Source: Methanothermobacter tenebrarum
Lineage (GTDB): Archaea; Methanobacteriota; Methanobacteria; Methanobacteriales; DSM-23052
DNA: 64,000 nt
NCBI RefSeq assembly: GCF_003264935.1
Contig: NZ_QLOE01000004.1
Coordinates: forward strand, 62,001 to 126,000
Direction of reading: 5' to 3'
A program made the translations under genes and the position numbers. Positions 26,118-26,191 of this stretch are shown here, piece after piece. Below the pieces are notes generated by a model that was not told where the DNA came from, ran no database searches, and saw nothing but the letters and a program-made list of their open reading frames with translations. Positions within the stretch are counted from its first letter, which is position 1. Each line of letters opens with the position of its first letter.

Positions 26118-26191
26118 GGGCCCGTGGCTCAGGTGGTTAGAGCGCACGGCTGATAACCGTGAGGTCCTGGGTTCAAATCCCAGCGGGCCCA
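26118..26191 (+). tRNA. tRNA-Ile (GAU)
   Basis: A complete 74-nt cloverleaf. The acceptor stem is GGGCCCG/CGGGCCC with discriminator A, the anticodon stem CACGG/CCGTG encloses loop CTGATAA with anticodon GAT (26152-26154), and the T arm has CCTGG GTTCAAATC CCAG. No intron and no encoded CCA, since TCCC follows. The last 19 nt overlap the trpD coding region on the opposite strand. Confidence 0.97.

Follow-up and report, generated by a model that had tools for sequence, protein, structure and literature searches.

The locus examined here raises the question of how a gene of tryptophan synthesis came to end inside a tRNA gene on the opposite strand, and of what this ending means for either partner. 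We considered the window, i.e. the whole stretch of 64,000 nucleotides of Methanothermobacter tenebrarum DNA that was analyzed, together with the corresponding loci of relatives and a survey of other tRNA genes.

Geometry of the shared 3' ends

trpD (26173-27258, minus strand), the final gene of a trp run, encodes an anthranilate phosphoribosyltransferase of 361 residues, as defined by its ORF, TIGR01245 and Pfam PF00591/PF02885. The only tRNA gene in the window, tRNA-Ile(GAT), lies at 26118-26191 on the plus strand, as found by both ARAGORN and Rfam. Both are genuine genes, with TrpD scoring 408 bits against the TIGR01245 trpD model (cut-off 199) and the tRNA scoring 73.2 bits with RF00005 (E 4.1e-14). 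As can be read directly from the ARAGORN, Rfam and ORF coordinates, the two form a convergent pair, lying on opposite strands with 3' ends that share 19 nt (26173-26191, both strands). Counting from the tRNA 3' end, these 19 nt comprise the discriminator, seven acceptor bases, five T-stem bases and six T-loop bases; CCA is not encoded after A26191. The trpD stop, TGA (26173-26175, minus strand), is the complement of a TCA in the tRNA-Ile T loop, which we take to be T55-C56-A57 by standard tRNA numbering. An earlier note on this DNA had placed the stop within the T arm of the tRNA, with an overlap of 19 nt; the coordinates agree, with the T loop being the exact location. The same note held that the complement of a structural RNA codes for the last residues of TrpD. 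Indeed, the five final residues (GPAGI), together with the last base of the D356 codon, are read from the complement of tRNA-Ile. We refer to overlaps in which TGA is the complement of T55-C56-A57 as the T-loop-stop class, a name coined here, and the trpD/tRNA-Ile overlap fits this class.

Read upstream from trpD, the trp run on the minus strand is D-A-B-F-C (trpA, trpB, trpF and trpC were named by eye). Within 27258-29899, trpD abuts trpA, and the trpA/trpB, trpB/trpF and trpF/trpC pairs overlap by 4, 4 and 8 nt, respectively.

Conservation and origin of the overlap

A TrpD match was found in 130 of the 150 genomes of the order. In all four genomes of the genus, each from a different species, TrpD was directly seen to be 361 residues long, to end in RDGPAGI followed by TGA and to overlap tRNA-Ile by 19 nt, extending the earlier note's observation to the other genomes of the genus. 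As the same 19 nt are shared in every genome of the genus, the overlap is not an assembly accident. The overlap is also present in the MAG contig LGEU01000001.1 (L031, Methanobacteriaceae), whose TrpD is 89% identical and which, judged by identity and by the junction, looks like the species of G001. Across the 80 TrpD loci L031-L110, we found nine tRNAs and a single overlap, that of L031. False ORFs arising from translated tRNA sequence are known (AntiFam; PMC9710616), and the TrpD tail could accordingly be suspected of being an annotation or sequence artefact. This is barely credible, however, as TrpD is a certain gene whose frame is open up to the T-loop TGA in each of the four species, such that the artefact reading is refuted for the ORF. 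A chance ORF or a sequencing error was likewise ruled out by the TIGR01245 identification of trpD and by the presence of the overlap in all four species.

Beyond the genus, the pair is arranged differently. In f3, another family of the order, trpD is convergent with tRNA-Ile in 8/8 cases, with its own stop and a gap of 6-130 nt, and trpD faces tRNA-Ile across 163-403 nt at five more distinct loci (L005-L008 and L017). tRNA-Ile faces trpD at 21 of the 110 TrpD loci, a count that includes duplicates and that considered a stretch of up to 500 nt, shorter at contig ends. From this distribution, the convergent order of trpD and tRNA-Ile is judged to be old. The earlier note had reasoned that relatives with a TrpD ending before the tRNA would reveal a recent loss of an earlier stop. 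One half of this reasoning stands, as in all 13 distinct loci where relatives from outside the genus retain the pair, TrpD was directly seen to stop short of the tRNA. The other half does not, since within the genus the overlap is fixed (4/4) and is not a recent event in one genome. As relatives that keep the pair end TrpD before the tRNA, comparison with them is most simply read as indicating that the overlap is a derived state, fixed in the genus.

The C-terminal tail of TrpD

The TIGR01245 match to TrpD ends at residue 352. In an AlphaFold model of TrpD (23 sequences; mean pLDDT 92.3), the last helix spans residues 342-356, and mean pLDDT is 83 at residues 351-360 and 56 at residue 361. The five tRNA-encoded residues are thus placed past the last predicted helix, and the C-terminus of TrpD in relatives is short and variable. 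Given this model, the best reading is that the tail is tolerated.

Among the four species, none of the last 18 nucleotide columns of trpD (five codons and the stop) varies, as compared to 261 of the 1065 other columns. The earlier note had proposed that these residues are under constraint together with the tRNA. At the protein level, we do not uphold this claim, since the tRNA alone accounts for the invariance and the tail lies beyond the last predicted helix. The codons AGG GAT (R355, D356) that adjoin the tRNA are invariant across the four species as well, and may reflect a weak constraint on the protein or on the 3' flank.

Base 57 and the position of the stop

The antisense of GGTTCAAATCC is GGATTTGAACC, in which TGA appears in one of the three frames. 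When tRNA copies were sorted by base 57, the first stop of one antisense frame fell at exactly 19 nt in 183 of 186 A57 copies and in 0 of 78 G57 copies; it should be noted that these counts come from part of the loci of each of G000, G002, G148 and G150, and that copies from overlapping loci were counted repeatedly. The other two antisense frames of A57 tRNAs mostly stay open for dozens of bases, or throughout. The dependence of the trpD stop on A57 is direct, since G57 would yield CGA; reading by eye, TrpD would then continue for 12 residues until a TAA in the complement of the tRNA. By exact patterns, tRNA-Ile with A57 was found in 4/4 genomes of the genus and in 1/146 elsewhere in the order (G073, where a G57 match is present as well), and tRNA-Ile with G57 in 0/4 and 132/146, respectively; the remaining genomes matched neither pattern.

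This distribution can be taken to support the view that A57 of tRNA-Ile was selected in the genus so as to supply the stop of trpD, i.e. that a tRNA base changed under pressure from a protein gene. The 12 residues that TrpD would otherwise gain speak for the same view, as does the finding that base 57 differs between G000 and G148 in only three of the 32 comparable isoacceptors, namely Ile, Leu(TAA) and Thr(GGT). Nonetheless, 3/32 amounts to about one in eleven by chance, and the presence of Ile among the three is at most suggestive. Furthermore, Leu(TAA) and Thr(GGT) also switched, yet in G000 and G002 neither has a convergent ORF of at least 100 aa that ends inside the tRNA or at most 60 nt away, and therefore the switch at base 57 happens without an overlap, too. 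A57 may also predate the overlap, having merely permitted it. With these points considered, selection of A57 on behalf of trpD appears improbable.

RNA from the two strands and flanking signals

The earlier note further stated that read-through of the trp operon would produce RNA antisense to tRNA-Ile. The antisense part of this statement is inherent in the locus, since any full-length trpD message contains 19 nt or more complementary to the tRNA-Ile 3' end; read-through is, however, unnecessary for it. Judging from the sequence, a full antisense tRNA from the trp strand is possible, and such longer RNA is predicted to adopt a mirrored cloverleaf-like fold, with a U6 tract after it. One could see in this a regulatory device, whereby trp mRNA antisense to tRNA-Ile links the synthesis of tryptophan with the supply of isoleucine tRNA. 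The antisense stretch is unavoidable in trp mRNA, and an RNA from the trp strand that spans the tRNA has a favourable fold (z -3.09), in which the mirrored T-hairpin loop holds the stop codon and the U6 tract comes shortly after. The mirrored fold is, however, entailed by the tRNA sequence, one of the four genus members (L003) lacks the U tract, and A-runs of at least 5 are common enough upstream of tRNAs (see below). Moreover, overlaps of like kind involve unrelated genes and tRNAs, and the known control of the trp operon in M. thermautotrophicus is by the TrpY repressor (PMC6737238). A regulatory role of this kind is hence very unlikely.

Several flanking elements were considered as possible transcription signals. 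A T6 tract just past the tRNA 5' end (26096-26101, minus strand) could mark the 3' end of the trp transcript, and tracts of T6-T8 are found there on the trp strand in three of the four genus members. As a 3'-end signal the tract is weak, since A-runs of at least 5 precede 8 of the 38 tRNAs in G000, 7 of 37 in G002 and 8 of 37 in G003. A TATA-like TTTATAA (26078-26084, plus strand), starting 40 nt before tRNA-Ile, is a possible tRNA promoter. A promoter shared by the genus was rejected, as the TATA-like element lies 40-45 nt from the tRNA in three members but 141 nt away in L003. A T7 tract downstream of the tRNA and within the trpD complement (26221-26227, plus strand) is a possible tRNA terminator; a conserved terminator inside trpD was rejected, as the run is T7, T5, T6 and T3 in the four species. 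A scan with sigma-70 and hairpin-terminator models, which do not cover archaeal signals, returned nothing useful.

In the locus of G001 (L003), tRNA-Ile has a longer D loop than its counterparts in the three remaining members of the genus (GGCTCAGCTTGG vs GGCTCAGGTGG), and its upstream flank differs from theirs as well.

Overlaps at other tRNA genes

The survey of tRNAs covered 513 places, with orthologues counted repeatedly: 120 in the genus, 113 in f3, 35 in G150 (of the same class but another family), 139 in f2, and 37, 27 and 42 in three distant genomes, reached via L110 (Nitrosopelagicus), L051 (Hecatella) and L048 (Thermovibrio). Coverage was near-whole for G000, G002, G003, G148, G150 and the three distant genomes (30 loci each, or loci and stretches), and consisted of selected tRNA places for the rest of f3, G001 and all of f2.

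T-loop TGA stops occur at several unrelated gene/tRNA pairs. tRNA-Thr(CGT) is the partner of a group 1 glycosyltransferase in the window's own genome (L118:317-1519, C9; identified by Pfam), which ends in ..RAPGGD*, of an ORF family with no NCBIfam match (L227 and L324, both f3) and of chorismate synthase (AroC; L254). A MiaB-like-B methylthiotransferase stops in this manner against tRNA-Phe (L263), as does SepCysS against tRNA-Ser (L278); these three enzymes are from G150 and were identified by NCBIfam. The last case, a 497-aa ORF against tRNA-Pro (L429, from the Thermovibrio genome), was kept without a family check. Overlaps in other frames were also found, these being of 27 and 16 nt in G151 and of 41, 39 and 31 nt in G153. 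L181, the G002 orthologue of L118 (80.5% identical), meets the same tRNA-Thr(CGT) in a different frame, which stays open across almost the entire tRNA. No overlap was found at the 139 places of f2 or the 27 of G152.

Of 13 overlaps kept for a test of frame, seven have the T-loop stop (binomial vs 1/3, 0.10), as do seven of the ten on A57 tRNAs (0.02), although this set is small, post hoc and partly picked by eye as genuine-looking. The seven are TrpD (counted once for four genomes), L118, L227 and L324 (as one family), L254, L263, L278 and L429, and the six in other frames are L181, L398, L393, L425, L356 and L377. L398, L393, L425, L356 and L377 were, like L429, kept without a family check. 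Dropped beforehand were L300 (154 aa), L111 (114 aa) and L326 (85 aa), together with L207 (211 aa, basic) and L271 (127 aa), neither of which has an NCBIfam match. The T-loop frame is thus common, but not proven to be favoured. Gene ends that overlap tRNAs are, judging from the pairs compared, a recurrent product of compact genomes.

In Thermovibrio, a bacterium (reached via L048), four of 42 tRNAs have a long opposite-strand ORF ending inside them (L425, L356, L377 and L429, by 41, 39, 31 and 19 nt, respectively).

Proposed origin and its meaning

Taken as a whole, the locus is best explained, and we think very probably so, as a convergent pair in a compact genome in which trpD lost its own stop in the ancestor of the genus and took up the T-loop TGA, with the resulting tail being tolerated. 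The starting point would be the old convergent arrangement of the trp gene run and tRNA-Ile. In the ancestor of the genus, the stop of trpD would have been lost, probably together with its spacer in a deletion, although point loss of the stop is an alternative route. The TrpD frame would then have continued on the strand opposite the tRNA 3' end, up to the first in-frame stop, namely the TGA that nearly every A57 tRNA examined here carries antisense in one of three frames. The price, five residues and one base taken from the tRNA complement, would fall on the end of a tail beyond the last helix; such a cost is presumably small, and the tail, if close to neutral, could therefore be tolerated and the overlap fixed. 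The sequence constraint on tRNA-Ile would now also pin the stop of trpD. In this account, both strands are assumed to be expressed and the tail to be translated. We thus regard the overlap as genuine and conserved, and as largely the outcome of unremarkable genome compaction that follows a tidy mechanical rule.

The rule is simple: in the genomes measured, an A57 tRNA nearly always closes one of its antisense frames after 19 nt. It predicts the C-terminal tails of genes that face tRNAs and bears on how gene callers handle gene ends within tRNAs, and it turns base 57 into a site at which constraint on a tRNA could come from a protein gene. As a tentative and rather doubtful extension, the A57 T loop might act generally as a ready-made stop for genes that converge on tRNAs, catching those that lose their own stop at a cost of five residues, shaping gene ends beside tRNAs and tying down base 57, as in the tRNA-Ile of the genus. 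For trp regulation as such, nothing is changed yet.

Comparison with known systems

In the eight f3 genomes, as opposed to the genus, trpD ends ahead of tRNA-Ile. The D-A-B-F-C order in the window, read upstream from trpD, fits the trpEGCFBAD operon of M. thermautotrophicus (PMC6737238); the part of that account considered here says nothing of the trpD 3' end. Archaeal tRNA genes are known to be overlapped by integrated elements (PMC3218864), and an N-terminal case of a reading frame on tRNA sequence has been described (PMC5897793). No description of a T-loop stop was found in the literature searched, which lay mostly outside subscription journals. In gut bacteria, an ORF overlapping a tRNA gene was missed by Prokka and re-identified via metaproteomic data (PMC8967034). 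It resembles trpD in being an ORF that overlaps a tRNA gene; the spectral support is that of the gut ORF, and the part of the report considered here gives no strand, frame or stop position and makes no link to the T loop. Finally, the reading frames catalogued by AntiFam (PMC9710616) lie, like the TrpD tail, on tRNA sequence. They are, however, regarded there as spurious proteins, whereas the TrpD tail ends a certain and conserved enzyme.
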